Assembly (NCBI GenBank): GCA_900315815.1
Contig: ONAS01000022.1
Span: 1-44,444, forward strand
From: an uncultured Eubacteriales bacterium
GTDB lineage: Bacteria; Bacillota; Clostridia; Oscillospirales; Acutalibacteraceae
Direction: 5' to 3'
Length of the DNA stretch: 44,444 bases
Position numbers and translations under genes: made by a program. Below, piece after piece: positions 29,794-43,245 of the stretch; the first letter of the stretch is position 1; the number at the start of each line of letters is the position of its first letter. The notes beneath the pieces were generated by a model. The model was not told the origin of the DNA and made no database searches. It saw only the letters and a program-made list of their open reading frames with translations.

Positions 29794-29848
29794 AAAAGCA
29801 TCAAGATACTGCGGCAGATCCTGCCGTACATATCACTTTCGGAACAAT

Positions 29849-29880
29849 GGCGTTCTCAGTTCAGCTGAGGGCGCCTTTTT
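29849..29880 (+). terminator. Leader terminator (candidate attenuator) of the ATP-grasp gene
   Basis: GGCGTTCTCAG (29849-29859) pairs with CTGAGGGCGCC (29865-29875) with two G-U pairs, followed by five T. It lies between the promoter at 29765-29793 and the ATG at 29919, so it must be bypassed for expression. A smaller GGCAG/CTGCC hairpin precedes it at about 29814-29826. Confidence 0.65.
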
Positions 29881-33178: not shown

Positions 33179-35224
33179 TCACGGCGCGAAATACGCGTTC
33201 ATCTTCTCGCTGAGGAGGCCAAGATCGAAGAAATTCGCGTAGGGGTTCTCTCCCTCGGCGATCAGGTCAGCGTCGAGCGGACAGCCGAAGTCCATGTTCT
33301 CTCCGGAGTCGGAGAGGAAATGTGTGGCTGCGGAGGAGCAGGCGAACTCGACGCCGGCGGCAGAGGTGATGCGGATGCCGCAGGCGCCGCCCGAGCTCTT
33401 CTGTCCGAGGATCATTGCGCCGTGCTCGTGCATGAACCACGGATAATTGTTAGACGCTGAGAAGGAATGATTGCTTGTCAGCACACCGTAGTTATAATCG
33501 GTATAGGGGCTGACGTCTTGCTCGTCGAATTTGCCGTCAAAGTTTAAATCGAACTGAATACTGTTGGTTCTGGTACTCTGAATAAGCCGGTCGTAAAAGC
33601 GGGCATAGCCCTTTCCGGTCATCAGCCACTCGATCGCGACCATCGCGTTGGAGTTGCCGCCGTTGTTGCAGCTCATGTCGATGATGATATTCCTGATCGC
33701 GGGATTCTGTTTTGCGCGCTCGAGACCGGAGAGAACGGCGCCCACGGTATCATATGTTTCTTTACCGCCGTAGTTGAATTTCAGCGGACGCTCGCCTCTG
33801 CCTGCGTAGAACGCCTTCCAGCCCCAATGATCGACACAAAAGTAGTCAAAGCTGATCATCGCGGTATCGCCCTGCTCGATGTAATAGCCGTCGCCGAAAG
33901 CGACTTCGCGCGCCTTTTCGCAGAGCGGCAGGTCATCAAAATATTTGTCCTCACAATCAAAATGCTTTTGAGCGTAGTCACAGTCTAACATCGATCTGAA
34001 CGCTTCTCGAGTAAGATCAAGGTCTCCGTAGAACAGTTTGGAATATACTAAATCCGTATGTCCTCCGTCGAACAGGATACCGTTGATCAGATGTACCATA
34101 CCGGTATAAAAGGTCCTGAAGTCGGTAGAGAGCAGCTTCTCCCTGATCTCGGGATATTTTTCCGTCAGGAGTTCGTCGAGCTTCATGGTCTTAAGGTCGT
34201 CGTGCACCCATTCCTGACCGGGCTGACCGTAAAGATAATCGATGTTGAAGCACAGCTCGCGGTAGGTGAAGTCCGCAAGATCGGCGGGGTGATCCTGTTC
34301 AACGTCCGTGATAAAGTCAGGGTCGTTATCGAGCGCGGATGTGCTGTTATAATTTACAACGTAGAGCTTTTTGCCGCTATAGACGACGCGATAGAGCTCA
34401 TGGGTAGAGAAAATGTCGCTGACGGTGGCAAGAGGCGCATAGACGCCGCTCTCGTCACCTCTGAGGTCGATGCCGTATTCGCAGAGGTTCAGCGTTATGG
34501 GCGCGCGGTCGGCGGGTTCGTAGGATTCTTTGTACTCGATAAAGGGATAGTTCTCATCATAGGCAGTCCCCATTTTTTCTATCGCTATTATGCCTTTTAA
34601 GGTAGAAGCCGTGTACGAAAATTTCTCAAAATCATCAATATCGATCGTGTCGGCGTCGATATCGAAAACGCCGCGATTTCCGGCAATATTCGTCAGCGTA
34701 TACCTGCCGCCGTCGCGGGTGCAGGTCATGCCGTCCGTAAGGTCGGTATTGACCAGATAGAACTGATCGTAGAAGCCCTCGACGTTGATATATGGTACAT
34801 TCGGCTGATCGGCATAAAAGCGCAGATCGGCGGTCTCGGTGGACTCAAGGCTCGAGCGCAGTACGGGAACGGCTTTTGTTTGAAAGACCTCATCGAGAGG
34901 TTTGCCGATACTGTCGTTTGAGGGCAGGGATGCGAGCCATCTCTGGATAAAGGTCGCGTCAACGATGGTCACCTCGCCGTCCTGATCGGTGTCGCTTGCC
35001 GTTTCGTTATAGGATTCAACCGAAAGAGACGCAAGCGTCCGCTGAATACATGTCGCATCGAGGATCGTCACCTCGCCGTCGCCGTCCGCATCGCCCAAGA
35101 GAATGATAGGTTTCTCAGCAATGTCTGTCTTTTCAGCGCCCGCCGAAAGCGGCAGAACGGTGAATACGCCCATGATCATGATCAATGATAAAAGGATACT
35201 GAGGGGTCTGTGCATAGATTTCAT
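33179..35224 (-). CDS. Secreted S41-like peptidase with an N-terminal type I dockerin
   Basis: 681 residues. Signal peptide 1-30 (ending LPLSAGA). A full dockerin occupies about 43-100: two calcium loops, GDADGDGEVTILDATCIQRT and DTDQDGEVTIVDATFIQRW. This would dock the enzyme to a cohesin scaffold. Residues about 420-650 carry a peptidase S41-like core: IIIDMSCNNGGNSNAM (the GGN strand), LTSNHSFSASNNYP, where the Ser before ASN is the likely nucleophile, and GQKSSGGACG. A further EF-hand-like loop, DLNFDGKFDEQD, lies near 560 inside the protease domain. Dockerin-bearing proteases are known in cellulosomal Ruminococcus. No cohesin protein is in the window. GGGGAG precedes the ATG. Confidence 0.8.
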   Translation of the reverse strand: MKSMHRPLSILLSLIMIMGVFTVLPLSAGAEKTDIAEKPIILLGDADGDGEVTILDATCIQRTLASLSVESYNETASDTDQDGEVTIVDATFIQRWLASLPSNDSIGKPLDEVFQTKAVPVLRSSLESTETADLRFYADQPNVPYINVEGFYDQFYLVNTDLTDGMTCTRDGGRYTLTNIAGNRGVFDIDADTIDIDDFEKFSYTASTLKGIIAIEKMGTAYDENYPFIEYKESYEPADRAPITLNLCEYGIDLRGDESGVYAPLATVSDIFSTHELYRVVYSGKKLYVVNYNSTSALDNDPDFITDVEQDHPADLADFTYRELCFNIDYLYGQPGQEWVHDDLKTMKLDELLTEKYPEIREKLLSTDFRTFYTGMVHLINGILFDGGHTDLVYSKLFYGDLDLTREAFRSMLDCDYAQKHFDCEDKYFDDLPLCEKAREVAFGDGYYIEQGDTAMISFDYFCVDHWGWKAFYAGRGERPLKFNYGGKETYDTVGAVLSGLERAKQNPAIRNIIIDMSCNNGGNSNAMVAIEWLMTGKGYARFYDRLIQSTRTNSIQFDLNFDGKFDEQDVSPYTDYNYGVLTSNHSFSASNNYPWFMHEHGAMILGQKSSGGACGIRITSAAGVEFACSSAATHFLSDSGENMDFGCPLDADLIAEGENPYANFFDLGLLSEKMNAYFAP

Positions 35225-35597: not shown

Positions 35598-36236
35598 TTG
35601 ATTCTCGATACAGATAAAGGAAATGAAGGCTTTAATGGTTTTTCCACCGCTGAGGATAATGCAAAAATGCCCAGACATACCTGTATTGTTTACGCTAAGG
35701 CCGAAGCCCCCGAGATTAAGCGTAATCCGGGACATATTATGCCGCGTTCACTTGCGGAATTTTTCAGAGTCATTCCTGCTTTGGATAAAGCAGATATTGT
35801 ACGGTTACACGGTTTGACCGGCGGGATTCCTGCAATAGCAAAAGAGCTGGATACGACGCTGTCTTACGAGGATAACTTAAAAAGGCTGCTGGGTCATGGT
35901 TCTGCATTCTCGGATTTCTTACCCGCCGTCCTGACAGAGCTGTTCCGCTCGCCTGATAGCTATCACCCGCTGATGTATCAAATCGCTCTGGGCAAGCACA
36001 GACTAAGCAAAATTGCAAAAGCTGCAGGCTTCCCGAATAACAAATGCGGGAAATATCTCGAGGCGCTGACCAATGTCGGATTGGTGGAAGCTGTACGGAA
36101 ACGCCCAACGGATATGCACGTTACTATCTGGCGAACAGTTTTCTTTATAGCCGGTAATAGTGTGCTTACATCAAATTGTTTTGTCGTTGTCAGCGAAGCA
36201 GAAATAAATAATTCGTCGGGAACATACGGAAAAGCC
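35598..36236 (+). pseudogene. C-terminal fragment of an ATPase (ATPase_2/DUF234-like)
   Basis: The frame reads SLAEFFRVIPALDKADIVRL, LTGGIPAIAKELD, LPAVLTELFRSPDSYHPLMY, then IALGKHRLSKIAKAAGFPNN and KYLEALTNVGLVEAV. This is the lid and winged-helix part of STAND-like ATPases of the archaeal ATPase/DUF234 type. Walker A and B are absent, and the sequence after about 36130 does not continue the family; the frame runs on into the promoter and terminator of the next operon, to 36341. The TTG at 35598 has no ribosome site. It is a remnant of an accessory gene, often found in variable regions. Confidence 0.6.
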
Positions 36237-36265
36237 TTGACATTCTTATGTCGATGCGGTACAAT
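36237..36265 (+). promoter_or_regulatory. Near-consensus promoter of the ATP-grasp/alpha-E operon
   Basis: TTGACA (36237-36242), 17-bp spacer, TACAAT (36260-36265). Transcription should begin near 36272. Confidence 0.75.
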
Positions 36266-36289
36266 TCAGTTGTCAAATACAGTAAGCAA

Positions 36290-36322
36290 AGGCGCTTCTC
36301 CATTTGGAGAGGCGCCTTTTTT
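36290..36322 (+). terminator. Leader terminator (candidate attenuator) of the operon
   Basis: AGGCGCTTCTCC (36290-36301) pairs with GGAGAGGCGCCT (36306-36317), one G-U pair and a four-base ATTT loop, followed by six T. It lies about 20 nt after the predicted transcript start and 23 nt before the first start codon. Confidence 0.75.
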
Positions 36323-36345
36323 GTTTATCGGAACGGAGTGAGACC

Positions 36346-37674
36346 ATGACGCAGAATCAGTTTACAAAAGCAGTCGGCAATGCCGGTGAGATCAACGACC
36401 TGCTCAGGCGGTACGGTGTAAAGTTCGGCATTTACAAAAACGGCGTGTTCAATGAACAGTTTTTTCCGTTTGATCCGATCCCGCGCGTGATCACTGCCCG
36501 GGATTTTGCGAGGATCGAAAAGGGATTGATCCAGCGTGTGGATGCGTTGAACGCCTTTCTGTATGATATCTATCATGACAAGAACATCGTAAAAGACGGC
36601 ATCGTCCCGGATGATTTCATCTACATCTCAAAGGGATATCTCGCCCAGTGCGAGGGGATCACGCCGAAGAACAGGATCTACAGTCATATTTCGGGTATCG
36701 ATCTTGTGCAGGCGAAGGATGGCGAATGGTTTATTCTGGAGGATAACCTGCGGATCCCGTCAGGCGCGTCCTATCCGCTGATCGCCCGTGAGCTGACACG
36801 GATCGCCGCGCCGCAGGCGTTTGAGGAAAACGCTGTCGTCGATAACCGCGATTACGCGCAGATGCTGAAGGAAACGATGGAGTATGCCAACTGCGGCGGT
36901 ATCAGAGCGATCCTCACACCGGGAAGATACAACGCGGCGTACTTTGAGCACTCCTATCTGGCGGAGCATACCGACTCGGTGCTGGTGCAGAACGACGAGC
37001 TTTTCGTCGAGGACAACATCCTCTACCACCGCACCTACTCCGGCGGCAAGACACGGATCGGCGTACTGTATCGCCGTATTGCGGACGAATACCTTGATCC
37101 GCTGACCTTCCTGCCGGAATCGCTGATCGGCATTCCGAATCTGATGGAAGCTTACCGCAGCGGGAATGTCGGTATCATCAACGCGCCGGGCAACGGCGTT
37201 GCGGATGATAAAGGAATTTACTACTTTGTCCCGAAGATGATCCGTTACTATCTCAGCGAGGAACCGATCCTCAAAAACGCCCCTACCTATCTGCCGTTCT
37301 ATGAAGAGGATATGAAATATGTCATGGACAATCTTGAACGCCTTGTCATTAAGGATGTCGCGGAAGCGGGTGGTTACGGAGTCGTGTTCGGCAGTGAGCT
37401 GTCAAAGGAACGGCTGGAAGAATTCCGGAATACCATCATCGCAGAACCCAGACGCTTCATCGCGCAGGAGGTCATCGATTTCCTCGATCTGCCGATCATT
37501 GATAACGGCGAAACGGTCATGCGAAAAGCGGATCTGAGAGCATTCGTGCTGTCGGGCAAAACAACCAAGGTCTGGGCGTCGGGACTCACCCGATTCTCCC
37601 GCAATCCCGATTCATTCGTCGTCAATTCATCACAAGGAGGAGGCTTTAAAGATACATGGGTACTATCTCGCTAG
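36346..37674 (+). CDS. Circularly permuted ATP-grasp protein (COG2308 type)
   Basis: 442 residues from ATG 36346 (ACGGAG about eight bases upstream). It matches the circularly permuted ATP-grasp family (DUF404/DUF407): FDPIPRVITARDFARIEKGL (about residues 43-62), then DALNAFLYDIYHDKNIVKDG, GEWFILEDNLRIPSGASYPL (about 127-146), GVLYRRIADEYLDPL and VIKDVAEAGGYGVVFG (about 333-348). Family members are proposed to join a carboxylate to an amine using ATP, with alpha-E and transglutaminase partners. It is shorter than many relatives, mainly at the C-terminus, which ends SSQGGGFKDTWVLSR. It overlaps the alpha-E gene by 19 bases. The substrate is unknown. Confidence 0.88.
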   Translation: MTQNQFTKAVGNAGEINDLLRRYGVKFGIYKNGVFNEQFFPFDPIPRVITARDFARIEKGLIQRVDALNAFLYDIYHDKNIVKDGIVPDDFIYISKGYLAQCEGITPKNRIYSHISGIDLVQAKDGEWFILEDNLRIPSGASYPLIARELTRIAAPQAFEENAVVDNRDYAQMLKETMEYANCGGIRAILTPGRYNAAYFEHSYLAEHTDSVLVQNDELFVEDNILYHRTYSGGKTRIGVLYRRIADEYLDPLTFLPESLIGIPNLMEAYRSGNVGIINAPGNGVADDKGIYYFVPKMIRYYLSEEPILKNAPTYLPFYEEDMKYVMDNLERLVIKDVAEAGGYGVVFGSELSKERLEEFRNTIIAEPRRFIAQEVIDFLDLPIIDNGETVMRKADLRAFVLSGKTTKVWASGLTRFSRNPDSFVVNSSQGGGFKDTWVLSR

Positions 37675-38357
37675 AACACAGCGACCGTCTTTACTGGCTG
37701 GGACGCTATACGGAAAGAGTTTATACCACACTCAAGGCGCTGGGGCGTCTGTATGATAAAATGCTGGATTCGGAGCACGGCTATGCAGAGTACCTCGGGT
37801 TCTTCGGATTGACCGATACCTATGCCGACGACCATGCGTTTTTTCACAGCTTTCTGTTTGACGCAGGTAATCCGAATTCCGCGGCATACAGTCTGGAACG
37901 CGCCTACGATAACGGCATCGTACTGCGCGAGGAGATCTCCACCGCTTCGCTGTCCTTTCTGCAGATGGCAAAGGACACGCTGATCAAAGCGGAGAACAGC
38001 GGAAATATCCGTCTGTCGCTCCTGCCGCTGGAAGACATCCTTTATGCTTTCTGGGGCTGTCTGAATGAACACATCTACGACGATGAGATCAGGAACATCA
38101 TTTATATCGGAAAGACCGTTGAACGGCTGGATCTGTACATGCGTATGAAATATCCCTTCTCCGATGTTGAAAAAGAGTTTACACGGCTGCTGAAAAACCT
38201 GAGCCGTGTGCCGCGGTCAACGCCCTTCCGCTACCGGACAAAGGCGCTGTCCGTCTTAGTGGAAACGCTCGGAACACAGGAGGATTATGAGCGCGGCGTG
38301 AAAGAAGCATTGTACAATCTGTCCCGTCTGTTTGAGCGCGAGGAGGCGATCGGATGA
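37656..38357 (+). CDS. Alpha-E domain protein (COG2307)
   Basis: 233 residues, all-helical. The signature SDRLYWLGRYTERVYTTLKA (about residues 9-28) is the conserved start of the alpha-E family. Later helices include IGKTVERLDLYMRMKYPF (about 150-167) and the closing LYNLSRLFEREEAIG. The family nearly always accompanies the circularly permuted ATP-grasp and a transglutaminase and is assumed to act with them in peptide or amide ligation; no reaction has been fixed. Translation is coupled on both sides: it overlaps the ATP-grasp gene by 19 bases and the next gene by four (ATGA). An AGGAGG lies 12 bases upstream of the ATG. Confidence 0.88.
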   Translation: MGTISLEHSDRLYWLGRYTERVYTTLKALGRLYDKMLDSEHGYAEYLGFFGLTDTYADDHAFFHSFLFDAGNPNSAAYSLERAYDNGIVLREEISTASLSFLQMAKDTLIKAENSGNIRLSLLPLEDILYAFWGCLNEHIYDDEIRNIIYIGKTVERLDLYMRMKYPFSDVEKEFTRLLKNLSRVPRSTPFRYRTKALSVLVETLGTQEDYERGVKEALYNLSRLFEREEAIG

Positions 38358-39124
38358 AACGAGTGAATTTCTGCTTTTCGACAAAGCTGACCTTTGACGA
38401 TTATGTGCATGATCACAGCTTTGCGCTGCGCATCATCCCGCCTCAGGCGGAATCACAGAATATCCTTTCCTGCAGTCTGAATATTACACCGTATGCTTCG
38501 GTCAGGCAGACCGTCGACGCGTTCGGAAACAATGTGACCGCAGGCTATCTGAAAGACGACCACCGTTTCCTTGACTTTGAGCTCAAAGGATCGGCTGAGG
38601 TCGACTGCACAAAATATCGCACCGACTATATGCCGTGCTATCTCTATCCATCGGAATACACGATCCCCGACGAGGCGCTGAAGGAGTTCTACCGCGATCA
38701 TCAGGGCGACTGTAACGCAACGGCAAGGGACAGAGCCGCGTATTTCAGCGAGCTTTTGTCACAGATCATTGTCTATCAGAAAGGCGTGACCGATACCGCC
38801 ACGACGGCGGCACAGGCGTTTGCGCTGAAAATGGGCGTGTGTCAGGACTTTTCACATATCCTGATCGCACTTTTGCGGATGGACGGCATCGCCTGCCGCT
38901 ATATCGCAGGACTTGCTTTCTGTGACGGCGAGACCCATTCGTGGGTCGAATACTGGACAGGCGAGCATTGGGAAGGGATCGATCCCGCCAATAACTGTCC
39001 CGTCAGCGACGACTATCTGGTGATCTCACAGGGCAGAGATTTCCGCGACTGCGCGATCGATCGGGGCGTGATGTACGGGAACTATTCCCGACAGCTTCAG
39101 CTGGTCCGGTCGGTATTATCATAG
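38354..39124 (+). CDS. Transglutaminase-like cysteine amidase/protease (COG1305)
   Basis: 256 residues. The first 90 residues form the beta-rich N-terminal domain typical of bacterial transglutaminase-like proteins in these clusters. The catalytic triad is visible: Cys in MGVCQDFSHILIALLR (about 160), His in GETHSWVEYW (about 195) and Asp in GIDPANNC (about 210). Such enzymes usually hydrolyse or transfer peptide amides. No signal peptide or membrane segment is seen, so it acts in the cytoplasm, like its partners. It overlaps the alpha-E gene by four bases and precedes the M14-like gene by 17 bp. Confidence 0.9.
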   Translation: MKRVNFCFSTKLTFDDYVHDHSFALRIIPPQAESQNILSCSLNITPYASVRQTVDAFGNNVTAGYLKDDHRFLDFELKGSAEVDCTKYRTDYMPCYLYPSEYTIPDEALKEFYRDHQGDCNATARDRAAYFSELLSQIIVYQKGVTDTATTAAQAFALKMGVCQDFSHILIALLRMDGIACRYIAGLAFCDGETHSWVEYWTGEHWEGIDPANNCPVSDDYLVISQGRDFRDCAIDRGVMYGNYSRQLQLVRSVLS

Positions 39125-39141
39125 GGAAAGGAACAGGAACA

Positions 39142-40083
39142 ATGACAGAAACGATCGCAAGCGTTGCGCTTGCAGTCAATGAGAATCTGAAAATACAGAA
39201 GCGCCGTATCCGAAACGGCGCCGGTAAAACACGTCTCAGTCTTGTGACGGGCACCCACGGCGACGAGCTGGAGGGGCAGTATCTTGCCTATATGGTCGGC
39301 AGCTTTATCGACGAGCATATCGACCTGCTCGACGGGATCGTCGATATTTATCCCGCGCTCAATCCGATGGGCATCGACAGCATCACAAGAGGCATCCCGA
39401 TGTTCGATCTGGATATGAACCGCGTGTTCCCGGGAAACAAGAACGGCACGATGGCAGAGGTCGTCTGTTCCGCGATCGCAGACGATATCAGCGGTTCGGA
39501 CGTATGTATCGACGTTCATTCCAGCAATATCTTTCTCAAGGAGATCCCGCAGATCCGCATCAGCGTGCCGACTGCAGAAACGCTCCTGCCGTATGCCGAA
39601 ATGATGAACGTCGACTTTGTATGGATCCATGAGTCGGCAACGGTTCTGGAATCCACCCTGGCGCACACACTCAACTCTCGCGGTACCAAAACGCTGGTCG
39701 TGGAAATGGGCGTCGGGATGCGCATCACCAAGGAATACTGCGGACAGCTGTTCCGGGGCGTACTCAATCTGATGAAACAGCTCGGCATGTGGAAGGGAGA
39801 GGTAGTTCCCGTCCGCAGACCGATCATATCCGTCGGACGAGAGGTCGGATTTGTCAACTCCGACGTTGCGGGGATCTTTGTACCGTATGCCGATTTCGGC
39901 GACACGGTGAAAAAGGGCGACCACATCGGCAATGTGATCGATCCGCTGACTTCAAAGGTAGTCGAAAAAGTGGAGGCAGTCTGCGACGGGATGATCTTTA
40001 CCCTGCGCGAGTATCCTGTCGTCTACGGCGGATCGCTGCTGGCGCGGATCTTACAGCCTGTCGAGGGAGGCAAGAGCGCATGA
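39142..40083 (+). CDS. AstE/AspA-type M14 zinc amidohydrolase
   Basis: 313 residues. The metal site is intact: TGTHGDELEGQ (about residues 34-44) gives the His and Glu ligands, VCIDVHSSN (about 120-128) the second His, and LVVEMGVGMRI (about 185-195) the catalytic Glu. DLDMNRVFPGN (about 92-102) is the conserved NRxFPG substrate loop. The C-terminal 90 residues are the beta-rich AspA-type cap (AGIFVPYADFGDTVKKGD). Relatives remove the acyl group from N-succinylglutamate or N-acetylaspartate, or deacylate similar amides. AAAGGAAC precedes the ATG. It overlaps the next, degenerate paralogue by four bases, suggesting a stoichiometric pair. Confidence 0.88.
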   Translation: MTETIASVALAVNENLKIQKRRIRNGAGKTRLSLVTGTHGDELEGQYLAYMVGSFIDEHIDLLDGIVDIYPALNPMGIDSITRGIPMFDLDMNRVFPGNKNGTMAEVVCSAIADDISGSDVCIDVHSSNIFLKEIPQIRISVPTAETLLPYAEMMNVDFVWIHESATVLESTLAHTLNSRGTKTLVVEMGVGMRITKEYCGQLFRGVLNLMKQLGMWKGEVVPVRRPIISVGREVGFVNSDVAGIFVPYADFGDTVKKGDHIGNVIDPLTSKVVEKVEAVCDGMIFTLREYPVVYGGSLLARILQPVEGGKSA

Positions 40084-40967
40084 AAAAGAAGGTTTTGTTT
40101 TCACTGAAATCCCCCTATCGTGAACAGCTTGACGTGATCGGATACAGCTTCGGTCACGGAAAGAGATCTCTTGCGATCGTCGGCGCGATGAGAGGCAACG
40201 AGGTCCAGCAGATGTATGTCTGCAGCCGTATGGTGAAGGAGTTGAAAAAGCTCGAAGGAAGCGGCAGGATCGCCGATGACTGTGAGATCCTGGTGATCCC
40301 CTGCGTCAATTATTACTCCATGAACCTCGGCAAAAGGTTCTGGGCGATGGACAACACCGACATCAACCGCATGTTCCCCGGCTTTGAACTGGGCGAGACC
40401 ACCCAGCGCATCGCGGCAGGCGTTTTCAAAGAACTGCAGGGCTATGAGTACGGCATCCAGCTCGCGAGCTTTTATCAGCAGGGAAATTTTCTGCCCCATG
40501 TCAAGATGATGGACACAGGCTTTACCGATCCGGAGCTGATGAAGGATTTCGGACTGGAGTTCGGTATCGTACGCAAGCCGCGTCCCTATGATACCACTAC
40601 CCTGAACTACAATTGGCAGATATGGGAAACAAAGGCGTTCTCGGTATATGCGAACGCGACCGATGAGATCGATGAAAAAGCCGCAAAAGAAGCGGTCAAC
40701 GCCATCCTGCGCTTTATGGACAGCCGCGGTCTGGTCAGCGCCGTCACATCCCCCGGCTACCGTACCGTCATACTGGATGAAAGCGACACCGAACAGATCC
40801 GATCGGGCGCGGCAGGACTCTTTTTAGATGTTCTCGGCAGGGTGGTCGATCCCTTTGAATGCGAGACCGTCAGCGAGATCCGCTCGCCCGCTGCGGGCAC
40901 TATCTACTTCGCCTATCACAGCCCGCTGATCAACGAAAAAACGGTATGCTTCAAGATCATCAAATAG
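40080..40967 (+). CDS. Degenerate M14/AspA-like paralogue, probable pseudoenzyme
   Basis: 295 residues from ATG 40080 (GGAGG nine bases upstream). It aligns along its length with the gene before it: AIVGAMRGNEVQQMY against LVTGTHGDELEGQY, DNTDINRMFPGF against DLDMNRVFPGN, and the C-terminal cap (AGLFLDVLGRVVDPF). Both metal-binding His are lost: the first is Arg (MRGNE), and the second DVHSS site reads IQLASF. The catalytic-Glu segment VVEMG reads SVYANA. NRMFPG is kept. It should not bind zinc in the usual way, so it is likely a regulatory or substrate-binding partner of the active enzyme, or has a different chemistry. Confidence 0.75.
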   Translation: MKKKVLFSLKSPYREQLDVIGYSFGHGKRSLAIVGAMRGNEVQQMYVCSRMVKELKKLEGSGRIADDCEILVIPCVNYYSMNLGKRFWAMDNTDINRMFPGFELGETTQRIAAGVFKELQGYEYGIQLASFYQQGNFLPHVKMMDTGFTDPELMKDFGLEFGIVRKPRPYDTTTLNYNWQIWETKAFSVYANATDEIDEKAAKEAVNAILRFMDSRGLVSAVTSPGYRTVILDESDTEQIRSGAAGLFLDVLGRVVDPFECETVSEIRSPAAGTIYFAYHSPLINEKTVCFKIIK

Positions 40968-40989
40968 CTTATTGACCGGAAGTGACAAT

Positions 40990-41679
40990 ATGAAAAAACC
41001 TTTGATCGGTATCGTACCTCTGTCAGACTGTCAGCATAACAGCCTTTACGTGATTCCGAGATGTATGAACGCCATCGTTAAGGCGGGAGGCACGCCATGT
41101 ATCCTTCCGAAAACCGATAACGATCAATTGCTCATGAAAGCAGTAGAACTCTGCGACGGATTCATCCTGACAGGCGGACAAGATACTTCTATCGAACTGA
41201 CGGATACAGCATCCAGAGGATCCAACACTTTTTACACGGTAAACGACGATACAGCAACGCTGATACTCGACAAGGCGATAGAGCTTGATAAGCCCCTGCT
41301 CGGTATCTGCACGGGACTTCAGTTCATGAACGCGGCTTTAGGAGGCTCCTTCTATCAGGAGATCGTGACAGATACCGATGTTCCGCTCGGCGTGTCTTCT
41401 CATGTTGTACAGATCGAATCCGGCACTCCGCTTGCCGATCTGCTGCATATGCGTAAATTGTCTGTCAGCGGATGCAGCCAACGGCAGATCAAGCAGTTGT
41501 CTCCTCTGTTCAAAATGATGGCGCGGACGAAAGAAGGACAGATCGAGGCGGTCTATATGCCGCTCAAAAGATTCATTTGGGCAGTGCAGTGGCATCCTGA
41601 TCTTTCCTATCGCGGTTGTGAGGAAAACCTGCTGATCTGGAAAAACTTTGTTGATCATTGCAAAGAGTTACCATTATAA
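40990..41679 (+). CDS. Divergent class I amidotransferase-like (C26/PuuD-related) hydrolase
   Basis: 229 residues from ATG 40990, chosen because MKKPLIGIVPL matches the family start; an upstream ATG at 40972 adds six residues. FILTGGQDTSIEL (about residues 58-70) and LLGICTGLQFMNAALGG (about 101-117, nucleophile Cys) are kept. It departs from the gamma-glutamyl hydrolase pattern elsewhere: the HHQ segment reads SGCSQRQIKQLSP, and the terminal WHPE reads WHPD. Compared with the intact paralogue at 22063-22776, this suggests a changed substrate or an altered acid residue. It follows the M14 pair by 22 bp and precedes BioY by 24 bp. Confidence 0.8.
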   Translation: MKKPLIGIVPLSDCQHNSLYVIPRCMNAIVKAGGTPCILPKTDNDQLLMKAVELCDGFILTGGQDTSIELTDTASRGSNTFYTVNDDTATLILDKAIELDKPLLGICTGLQFMNAALGGSFYQEIVTDTDVPLGVSSHVVQIESGTPLADLLHMRKLSVSGCSQRQIKQLSPLFKMMARTKEGQIEAVYMPLKRFIWAVQWHPDLSYRGCEENLLIWKNFVDHCKELPL

Positions 41680-41703
41680 AAACTATGAAAAAGAGGTATA
41701 TGT

Positions 41704-42258
41704 ATGTCTGAAAAAACCCATGATAGCAAAAACACTCGCTTCTCGGTGAAGAGTATGGTCTTTACCGCAATGTTCGCCGCTTTGATCGCGGTATGCTCGA
41801 TCTTGAGCATACCGGTTGGTGAGGTACCTGTTACCCTCCAGACCTTTGCCGTGTGTCTTTCGGCGGCGATGCTCGGTTGGAAGCGCGGGACACTCAGCGT
41901 CTTTGTCTACATCCTGCTCGGCGCGGTCGGTGTTCCGGTGTTCGCAGGGATGTCAGGCGGCATTGGGATACTGGCAGGCCCTACCGGCGGATATATCATC
42001 GGCTTTCTGGCGACAGCACTGATTGTAGGTCTTGCGGCTGATAAGCGGGAGAGGAAGGCTCTGCCCTTGACGATAGCGATGATGCTGGGCATACTCGTTT
42101 GCTACGCTTTCGGTACCGTTTGGTTCATGGTCGTCATGAAGTGGGGTATCGTCGAAACGCTGATGACTTGCGTCGTTCCGTTCCTCATCCCCGACGCGGT
42201 GAAAATCGCGCTCGCCATGGTACTGTCCAATCGTCTGTCAAAGGTCGTTACGCTTTGA
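41704..42258 (+). CDS. bioY: BioY family biotin ECF-transporter substrate-binding subunit
   Basis: 184 residues, six membrane segments. The family signatures are IPVGEVPVTLQTFAVCLSAA (about residues 37-56), GWKRGTLSVFVYILLGAVGV (about 58-77) and GPTGGYIIGF (about 95-104). BioY captures biotin and works with the shared ECF module (EcfT, EcfA, EcfA'), which is not in this window. AAGAGG lies about eight bases upstream of the ATG. As the last gene of the ATP-grasp operon it is either a passenger or a sign that a biotin-like compound or biotin-dependent step belongs to the pathway. No BirA-type operator was seen. Confidence 0.9.
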   Translation: MSEKTHDSKNTRFSVKSMVFTAMFAALIAVCSILSIPVGEVPVTLQTFAVCLSAAMLGWKRGTLSVFVYILLGAVGVPVFAGMSGGIGILAGPTGGYIIGFLATALIVGLAADKRERKALPLTIAMMLGILVCYAFGTVWFMVVMKWGIVETLMTCVVPFLIPDAVKIALAMVLSNRLSKVVTL

Positions 42259-42444: not shown

Positions 42445-42479
42445 GGGCAAGGTAGATTGATCTCTATCTTGCCCTTTTT
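42445..42479. terminator. Bidirectional terminator between the operon and the dockerin gene
   Basis: GGGCAAGGTAGA (42445-42456) pairs with TCTATCTTGCCC (42463-42474), one G-U pair, six-base loop, then five T. It can end both converging transcripts. Confidence 0.85.
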
Positions 42480-42480
42480 A

Positions 42481-43245
42481 TTATGGCTGCGCCACAAACC
42501 TATAAGGATTGCCATCTATATCGCAGAGGTTTGCCAGAGTCCTCTGAATACGGGTTGCGTCAAGAATCGTAATACTTCCATCTCTGTCAGTATCGGCTTC
42601 ATCATTTGCAATTACATACTTCGATATTAAATCTGCTGTAAACCTTTGGATATGTGTAGCATCAATAATATTCAACTCAAGATCACCATTAGCATCGCCG
42701 ATGACATGAGGGACGCCGTAATACTCCGGTGTCGAAATAGAAATATCAAGCGACTGCCATACTTCATACAGATCTTCATACTTATCAAACATATCATGTG
42801 CATTGTTGTACTTACCAAACGTATCAGGTGGATTGTCGCACTCACCAAACGGATCTGGATAGTCGTAAAAATCAATAAAGAGATCCGACTTTGCATCGTA
42901 AAGACCAAATCCATAAATAAATGGATATATTTCTCCGGGCGCGTATACTCTTCTCCCACCAACTATGCCACTTTTCATGGCGGCAGGAAAAAGCTGGTTG
43001 AAATACACACAAACAATTGACCAGTCTGTTTCTCCGTTATTCATCTTATGATTATACACCTCTTCTAAGTGCATAAGGCATTTTTCAGGTGGAAGGTCCT
43101 CATATTGTTCATATAATTTTTTTAGATACGTTTCTTTTGCATCTTGGTCTATATGATTTTCAAGCGGAAAAGCTGCAGCCGGCAAGGATGTTGAAACAAC
43201 CAACAATACAGCTATTAAAACTAACGATAGTATTCTTCTTATCAT
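42481..43245 (-). CDS. Secreted AT-rich protein with a C-terminal type I dockerin
   Basis: 254 residues. Signal peptide 1-25 (ending LPAAAF). The middle 150 residues match no family I know; they are rich in Tyr, Asp and Pro (YDYPDPFGECDNPP, FGKYNNAHDMFDKYEDLYE) and contain short FGxY/F-D-K-type near-repeats. The last 65 residues are a complete dockerin: GDANGDLELNIIDATHIQR and DTDRDGSITILDATRIQRT calcium loops. It should bind a cohesin outside the cell. Base composition is clearly more AT-rich than that of its neighbours, and codons such as AAT, ATA and TTA are frequent, so recent transfer is likely. GAGGTGAG precedes the ATG; the promoter is at 43272-43300. Confidence 0.75.
   Translation of the reverse strand: MIRRILSLVLIAVLLVVSTSLPAAAFPLENHIDQDAKETYLKKLYEQYEDLPPEKCLMHLEEVYNHKMNNGETDWSIVCVYFNQLFPAAMKSGIVGGRRVYAPGEIYPFIYGFGLYDAKSDLFIDFYDYPDPFGECDNPPDTFGKYNNAHDMFDKYEDLYEVWQSLDISISTPEYYGVPHVIGDANGDLELNIIDATHIQRFTADLISKYVIANDEADTDRDGSITILDATRIQRTLANLCDIDGNPYRFVAQP

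Follow-up and report, generated by a model that had tools for sequence, protein, structure and literature searches.

Genes for a circularly permuted ATP-grasp ligase, an alpha-E protein and a transglutaminase-like protein form a widespread trio, for which the available parts of the literature searched gave no demonstrated function. The trio and its form with Anbu are already known, as are nitrogen regulons governed by ANTAR proteins. In Pseudomonas putida on nitrate rather than ammonium, PP_2685 (named bacterial proteasome, beta subunit) and PP_2688 (circularly permuted ATP-grasp) go up by log2 4.44 and 3.99, respectively (PMC8050072), and Anbu is up in the same species under nitrogen limitation (PMC5666114). 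The DUF404/407, DUF403 and transglutaminase-like cluster of Burkholderia cenocepacia is lower in an ntrC mutant (PMC5491218), and trio domains have been tied to urea-metabolism domains in marine metagenomes (PMC3597751). The published ANTAR target, AGCAANGRRGCUY, overlaps the 5' part of terminators, and positions 1 (A) and 4 (G) of its loop are important (PMC3369931). Here we describe a trio from an uncultured Eubacteriales bacterium of the Acutalibacteraceae (assembly GCA_900315815.1, contig ONAS01000022.1), in which the three genes are followed by two more, M14a and M14b, for AstE/AspA-type proteins. The window analysed is the whole contig of 44,444 bases, from a genome of 2.38 Mb in 142 contigs that is 96.9% complete.

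The five genes, which many gut bacteria share, are probably an amide ligase/hydrolase module that would be made under nitrogen shortage, and at the level of sequence its regulation by nitrogen is well supported. Comparison of the sequences establishes a conserved gene order, the catalytic residues of the transglutaminase and of M14a, an apparent pseudoenzyme partner and a shared kind of leader. The parts of the module are laid out in the window as follows:

36237..36265, + strand: sigma-70 type promoter, TTGACA-17-TACAAT, 11 of 12 matches, the best in the stretch scanned
36284..36297, + strand: hexaloop hairpin AAGC[AAAGGC]GCTT, a candidate ANTAR-target-like antiterminator by comparison with the published consensus AGCAANGRRGCUY (PMC3369931)
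36288..36322, + strand: intrinsic terminator overlapping the hexaloop hairpin; stem at 36288-36319, then a T tail; 14 pairs, 8 of them G-C; same layout in relatives
36346..37674, + strand: circularly permuted ATP-grasp ligase, 442 amino acids (aa); PF14403 (CP_ATPgrasp_2), 455 bits
37656..38357, + strand: alpha-E protein, 233 aa; PF04168, 69 bits, model positions 7-164 of 294
38354..39124, + strand: transglutaminase-like protein, 256 aa; PF01841 (Transglut_core), 50 bits, and PF08379 (Bact_transglu_N), 43 bits
39142..40083, + strand: M14a, AstE/AspA-type zinc hydrolase, 313 aa; PF24827 (AstE_AspA_cat), 67 bits
40080..40967, + strand: M14b, predicted AstE/AspA-type pseudoenzyme, 295 aa; PF24827, 41 bits, with the fold from a model and losses of ligands and base

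The original prediction had joined these five genes with those for a C26 peptidase and BioY into one seven-gene operon. Its reading of the layout was accurate: all seven open reading frames (ORFs) are intact and lie on the + strand, with overlaps of 19 bases (ATP-grasp/alpha-E) and 4 bases (alpha-E/transglutaminase and M14a/M14b) and gaps of 17 (transglutaminase to M14a), 22 (M14b to C26) and 24 bases (C26 to BioY), and Pfam matches agree with the family given for each gene. The conserved unit, however, is smaller, consisting of the trio, M14a and M14b. In the best 80 of 165 loci with the ATP-grasp, the five genes follow one another in this order on the same strand in 67, four of which (L034, L036, L049 and L081) have a partial M14a or M14b only. 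The contig ends no more than 40 bases past the last match in 11 of the remaining 13; in the other two (L074 and L075) the sequence continues without an M14 match. The closest loci, with ATP-grasps 94% identical, come from uncultured Ruminococcus and Clostridiales genomes, and the 80 loci range from Ruminococcus to Lachnospiraceae and Selenomonadaceae, with identities down to about 67%. Cultured strains of Ruminococcus albus or R. flavefaciens (L028, L061) are among those with the module.

Broader draws of genomes gave the same picture. Among 348 genomes drawn evenly from the phylum, CP_ATPgrasp_2 was found in nine and the M14b profile in six, all six being among the nine (a probability of about 4e-11 under independence, kinship of the genomes being ignored), and the genes are neighbours. 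At the level of the order, 18 of 295 genomes drawn have the ATP-grasp, and 14 of these match all five genes, including one (G054) with alpha-E split in two pieces. The other four are a locus cut by the contig end (G260), a degraded one (G201), a trio without M14 genes (G204) and an ATP-grasp alone (G231). Plasmids gave a different result: 117 of 72,556 records have an ATP-grasp relative, and just five match in an M14b search, at 23-31% identity. The trio and the M14 pair therefore hold up as a conserved unit, and because they do, the bond-making and bond-breaking genes belong together, which supports that part of the original prediction. Individual loci show some variation. In the degraded copy (L136 in G201), the ATP-grasp is shortened and interrupted by an internal stop, alpha-E gives no match and little is left of M14b; in L095 alpha-E and transglutaminase lie about 1.46 kb apart, unlike at other loci; and L121:7561-9462 encodes one 633-aa protein in which the two are fused.

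An NCBIfam search with the trio proteins gave no match. The one solved structure matched by the ATP-grasp, 3n6x (E 1.3e-133), is named a putative glutathionylspermidine synthase. In the transglutaminase, a C163-H195-D210 triad, assigned by eye, is kept in 75 of 75 rows. Alpha-E has no relative in the PDB by sequence; its AlphaFold2 model is all-helical and confident (mean predicted local distance difference test, pLDDT, 89.8), and none of 66 Foldseek matches of the model to the PDB reaches E 0.001.

The M14 pair consists of one apparently active and one apparently inactive copy. M14a retains H39, E42, H126, R94 and E188 in all 67 relatives as well as in the window; from features of the family, we take the HxxE...H set to be the zinc ligands, with R94 the arginine and E188 the catalytic glutamate. 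M14b is different. In the 66 usable rows of 67 (the odd one, L047, is an M14a match at a contig end), the first histidine is replaced by Arg, the second by Ala (56), Thr (9) or Pro (1), and the glutamate base by Tyr (64), Pro or Phe. All 67 rows have the ligand glutamate and the NR pair. The description of M14b as a paralogue without ligands thus needs qualification: two of the three ligands, both histidines, are lost throughout the usable rows, and the third, the glutamate, has stayed.

Why keep a second copy of this kind? M14b is no relic, since 61 of its positions are invariant in 36 diverse sequences, Y13, R38, G39 and E41 among them. It also keeps an almost invariant NRMFPG loop, and within the longer stretch DNTDINRMFPG every position is invariant save F99, which is nearly so. 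An AlphaFold2 model (pLDDT 85.3) has the AstE/AspA fold, with 3cdx, 2qj8, CphZ and DoeB as structural matches at E 1e-15 to 5e-14. The sole stretch below pLDDT 50, residues 87-105, is the conserved loop, consistent with a region that would take up its structure on contact with a partner or ligand. Enzymes of the AspA type form dimers. Two deep relatives (G616 and G595), with ATP-grasps 42% identical, also combine the trio with two M14 genes in tandem. Their second copy shares the signature TDINRMFPGY..GETTQR but has both histidine ligands and the glutamate ligand, with Met at the catalytic glutamate, so that the simplest reading would be that the M14b lineage lost its base before its zinc site. 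Close to the module in one locus (L024:2-409), an additional AstE/AspA-type fragment lies at the contig start.

Nitrogen, which like the switch in the leader had no place in the original prediction, enters the argument through the leader. Most leaders have a small hairpin with the loop AANGGN directly after the promoter, its stem overlapping the 5' arm of an intrinsic terminator. A hexaloop on a stem of at least 4 pairs occurs in 58 of 79 leaders, compared with a mean of 1.5 and a maximum of 5 in dinucleotide shuffles, and with 9 of 405 windows placed at random in these loci. In 35 distinct sequences, 97.1% of the stem cells are paired, as against at most 57.1% when the stem is slid, a percentage that is partly built in by the choice of sequences for having the hairpin. 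Because of this preselection, better evidence comes from the 17 double changes affecting both sides of the stem in these sequences, in which the closing C-G pair is invariant. A promoter of similar kind is found in 62 of 64 leaders that have the hairpin, and in 54 of these 62 the -10 box ends 7-21 bases 5' of the hairpin. The window's leader, AGCAAAGGCGCUU, departs from the ANTAR consensus at one loop position, and the leader of L117 fits it. By their overlap, hairpin and terminator are mutually exclusive, in a kind of leader common to nitrogen-assimilation genes. In L086, L095 and L098, two tandem hairpin-terminator units were seen by eye in the leader 5' of the ATP-grasp. A TTG-start ORF at 35598-36341 of the window, by eye the remnant of an ATPase gene, extends up to and across the promoter.

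What else carries such a leader? In the 2.38 Mb genome, the exact motif AAGCAANGGCGCT occurs twice (its reversed control once), before the module operon and in the leader of a citrate synthase gene. For a wider search, a covariance model (R1) was built from 36 module leaders, the window's included; matches were taken at E up to 0.5 in eight module genomes, and the hexaloop was called by one rule. This gave 36 matches, 20 with a hexaloop, of which six are module leaders. Ten of the 14 others precede genes for citrate synthase (2), glutamate synthase (3), GSIII (3), an ammonium transporter (1) and urease (1). In ten genomes without an ATP-grasp match there were 27 R1 matches, and the seven with a hexaloop precede GSIII (3), AsnA (1), glutamate synthase (1) and transport proteins (2). 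Matches without a hexaloop (16 of 36 in module genomes, 20 of 27 in the others) were set aside as ordinary terminators. Since hexaloop elements precede nitrogen genes in genomes without the module too, the element would mark a nitrogen regulon that exists independently of the module and that the module has presumably joined. A candidate regulator is at hand: in the window's genome an ANTAR regulator gene (PF03861) adjoins glnA in a glutamate-synthase cluster, whose GATase_2 ORF begins 309 bases past such an element, and ANTAR genes are present in 18 of 20 genomes tested, whether or not they have the module.

Within 6 kb of the module are genes for RelA/SpoT-domain proteins in 18 of the 80 loci, citrate synthase in 10, C26 in 10, isocitrate dehydrogenase and PPDK_N proteins in 8 each and ammonium transporters in 5. 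Of the citrate synthase genes, 9 of 10 follow a hexaloop, one of these with an odd stem, as do 4 of 5 transporter genes, compared with 23 of 538 unlabelled neighbours; these counts are not independent, the loci being related. Citrate synthase and isocitrate dehydrogenase supply 2-oxoglutarate. In L071 the order is PPDK, exporter-like protein, citrate synthase, isocitrate dehydrogenase, module, RelA, C26, another gene and transporter. The RelA/SpoT-domain neighbour (e.g., L024:9621-10610) lies mostly 3' of the module, and one copy (G031) has a hexaloop leader of its own. The one ammonium transporter scanned carries a P-II domain, and at L030:17451-19370, near the module, such a transporter is fused to a P-II domain. 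The window itself holds a second leader of this type before a neighbour gene:

29841..29880, + strand: second hexaloop leader, GGAAC[AATGGC]GTTCT, before the PPDK_N gene; R1 match at E 0.045 plus hexaloop
29919..32492, + strand: PPDK_N-domain protein (PF01326), with homologues near the module in 8 of 80 loci

Trios of other lineages appear to be under nitrogen control by other means. The GlnR consensus is TGTNA-N7-TNACA (PMC3412718), and two perfect boxes lie just 5' of the ATP-grasp in all three Paenibacillus-type trios, L119, L120 and L183 (P. cellulosilyticus, NZ_CP054613.1), each of which holds alpha-E and transglutaminase as well. With L119 as query, the ATP-grasp is 93% identical to that of L120 and 69% to that of L183. 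In base shuffles of L119 and L120, boxes averaged 0.018-0.019, and none of 2000 shuffles had two; the fetched stretch contains one more perfect box in L119 and likewise in L183. It may be that the trio is a general nitrogen-starvation module that was taken over separately by NtrC in Proteobacteria, by GlnR in Paenibacillus and by a single-hairpin ANTAR-type attenuator in Clostridia, that Anbu gave way as the hydrolase to an active/inactive AstE-AspA pair in Clostridia and Negativicutes, and that the module's route forms and cleaves an amide and so frees nitrogen. As a whole this broader scheme is tentative, with somewhat more room for doubt than for belief.

For the clostridial module, the following course of events would fit. 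On nitrogen limitation, the ANTAR regulator would bind the hairpin, so that the terminator is blocked and the operon read through. With less confidence, the ATP-grasp may join a carboxylate to an amine, and the transglutaminase may transfer or open the amide bond. A heteromer of M14a and M14b would then hydrolyse the bond and free the amino nitrogen, M14b holding the substrate by its NRMFPG loop. The net effect would be the capture or recycling of nitrogen from an amide-linked compound or tag. The bond may lie in a small molecule, a reserve or a protein tag, and the evidence points towards nitrogen economy.

A number of observations weigh against a nitrogen-controlled, ANTAR-dependent module. 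Characterised ANTAR targets consist of two hairpins, and here the promoter leaves little room for a second, which was found in 3 of 64 leaders against 3.1 expected, not above chance. The strict hexaloop is missing in 21 of 79 leaders and before most of the recurrent neighbours, being found at 2 of 18 RelA, 2 of 6 PPDK_N, 6 of 24 exporter-like and 2 of 14 ABC genes and at none of 12 C26 and 8 isocitrate dehydrogenase genes. Four of the 14 hexaloop matches outside the module precede APC permease, RelA/SpoT, PPDK_N and GtrA genes, one each, and ANTAR genes occur also in genomes without the module. In two trio loci (L118 and L121), both a convincing hexaloop and a GlnR box are missing, and when four upstream regions of three plasmid trios were scanned for sigma-54 sites under strict criteria, none came up. 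Finally, induction by nitrogen shortage cannot separate the making of a bond from its breaking.

The same genes could serve another end, namely the tagging of proteins or peptides, with the ATP-grasp and transglutaminase linking proteins to an amino acid or peptide, which the M14 pair would remove or trim in the place that Anbu has in Proteobacteria; it was reportedly in terms of tagging that Iyer et al. worded their 2009 proposal for the trio and Anbu. The M14 pair does occupy a place where another hydrolase would be, the window's genome has no proteasome-fold match (PF00227), and a role in peptide synthesis had been put forward for the trio and Anbu (Iyer 2009, cited by PMC5666114). However, the authors of the Anbu study judged a peptide-synthesis role less likely (PMC5666114), the operon shows no gene for a tag or carrier, and those M14 relatives that have named substrates, DoeB and CphZ, act on small molecules; tagging is rather unlikely. 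We regard as distinctly unlikely a nitrogen reserve cycle in which the ATP-grasp would make a small isopeptide reserve, like cyanophycin synthetase, and M14a would cleave it, much as CphZ cleaves beta-Asp-Arg. Cells normally build reserves when nitrogen is in excess, whereas the module carries a switch of the shortage type, and the seven genes, to which the search was confined, include neither a cyanophycin synthetase nor a cyanophycinase. In favour of such a cycle, CphZ (8ein, 8eip) is among the structural matches of M14b, and a cyanophycin dipeptide hydrolase annotated as AstE/AspA is known (PMC10206079). As to the switch, the leader could be a nitrogen attenuator whose regulator is no ANTAR protein. 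The single hairpin in place of a dual element would speak for this, as would a search of the leader against Rfam, which gave sub-threshold matches only and no family above its gathering score. On the other hand, loop positions 1 and 4, the invariant closing C-G pair, the overlap with the terminator and the nitrogen-related targets all resemble the published ANTAR element, and with ANTAR genes in nearly all of the genomes tested a different regulator is unlikely.

A seven-gene pathway, with hydrolysis by C26 and uptake by BioY as working parts, was what the original prediction had proposed. The features concerned follow M14b in the window:

40990..41679, + strand: C26 peptidase (gamma-glutamyl hydrolase-like), lineage-specific neighbour; PF07722 (Peptidase_C26), 136 bits
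41704..42258, + strand: BioY, substrate component of an ECF transporter, lineage-specific neighbour; PF02632, 161 bits
42445..42474, + strand: terminator after BioY, from the terminator scan

A single transcript across all seven genes is plausible from the sequence. The scan found 10 terminator-like sites compared with 6.3 expected by shuffling; the two strongest, both on the + strand, are those in the leader (36288-36319) and after BioY (42445-42474), and between the leader and 42445 there are weak + strand sites at 39329 and 39858 and no strong one; from M14b to the end of BioY the gaps are short. C26 also recurs, being found by tblastn in the whole retrieved flanks of 12 of 80 loci. But it is on the opposite strand in nine of the 12, and none of the 12 C26 genes has a strict hexaloop leader (that of G247, considered as a sharer of the leader, was rejected for a mismatch in its hairpin), so that its membership is weak at best. 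BioY adjoins the module in 2 of 80 loci, L020 and L021, both the closest relatives, and these are also the loci in which C26 and BioY lie directly downstream, in line, with two C26 genes in each. Even there, the window's C26 is 40-43% identical to its counterparts, whereas the ATP-grasps are 94-95% identical. C26 and BioY were accordingly rejected as core parts and are local additions to the module; with BioY so rare and the link to C26 weak, a complete pathway including uptake is unsupported and its seven-gene form very improbable. At a histidine motif presumed to be catalytic, the window's C26 reads HPD and its L024 homologue HPE. Dockerin-bearing proteins, one with a peptidase S41 domain, are encoded on the opposite strand on either side of the operon (33179-35224 and 42481-43245).

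If the clostridial module is a true member of the nitrogen-assimilation regulon, the question of what the trio does becomes testable, with the catalytic/pseudoenzyme M14 pair and the alpha-E model, for which Foldseek gave no match in the PDB, as concrete targets. A one-hairpin ANTAR-type switch, if true, would broaden the definition of an ANTAR target. In the literature searched on this combination and on its nitrogen control, there was no description of the trio accompanied by an active/inactive M14 pair, of a trio that belongs to an ANTAR or GlnR regulon, or of an ANTAR-type leader with a single hairpin.

How, then, does the locus compare with known systems? RimK/RimB and RloC/RloA likewise combine an ATP-grasp ligase and a hydrolase in one operon, but there the hydrolases are aspartic peptidases, and alpha-E is not mentioned in the available part of that study (PMC12239564). 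With the Anbu system the locus shares the same three families, adjacent and co-directional, and probably nitrogen control, which the proteobacterial members have (PMC8050072, PMC5491218). Anbu is a frequent but not universal companion of the trio; here an active/inactive AstE-AspA pair stands in a genome without a PF00227 match, the leader is of the ANTAR type instead of the control being by NtrC, and alpha-E covers little more than half of its Pfam model. To the ANTAR-target RNAs of the EutV/NasR/AmiR type, the leader is linked by a hexaloop with A1 and G4 on a stem, its overlap with a terminator, the nitrogen genes downstream and an ANTAR gene in the genome. Those RNAs have a pair of hairpins (P1 and P2) joined by a short linker, and a loop ending in GRR, whereas here there is one hairpin near the presumed 5' end of the transcript, with a loop that mostly ends in GGC or GGT. 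Among the AstE/AspA deacylases (DoeB, CphZ, 2qj8 and 3cdx), M14a is typical in keeping the zinc-binding and catalytic residues and M14b in having the fold; what sets the module apart is that the two form a tandem pair in one operon, the second copy having lost its catalytic residues in all usable rows.

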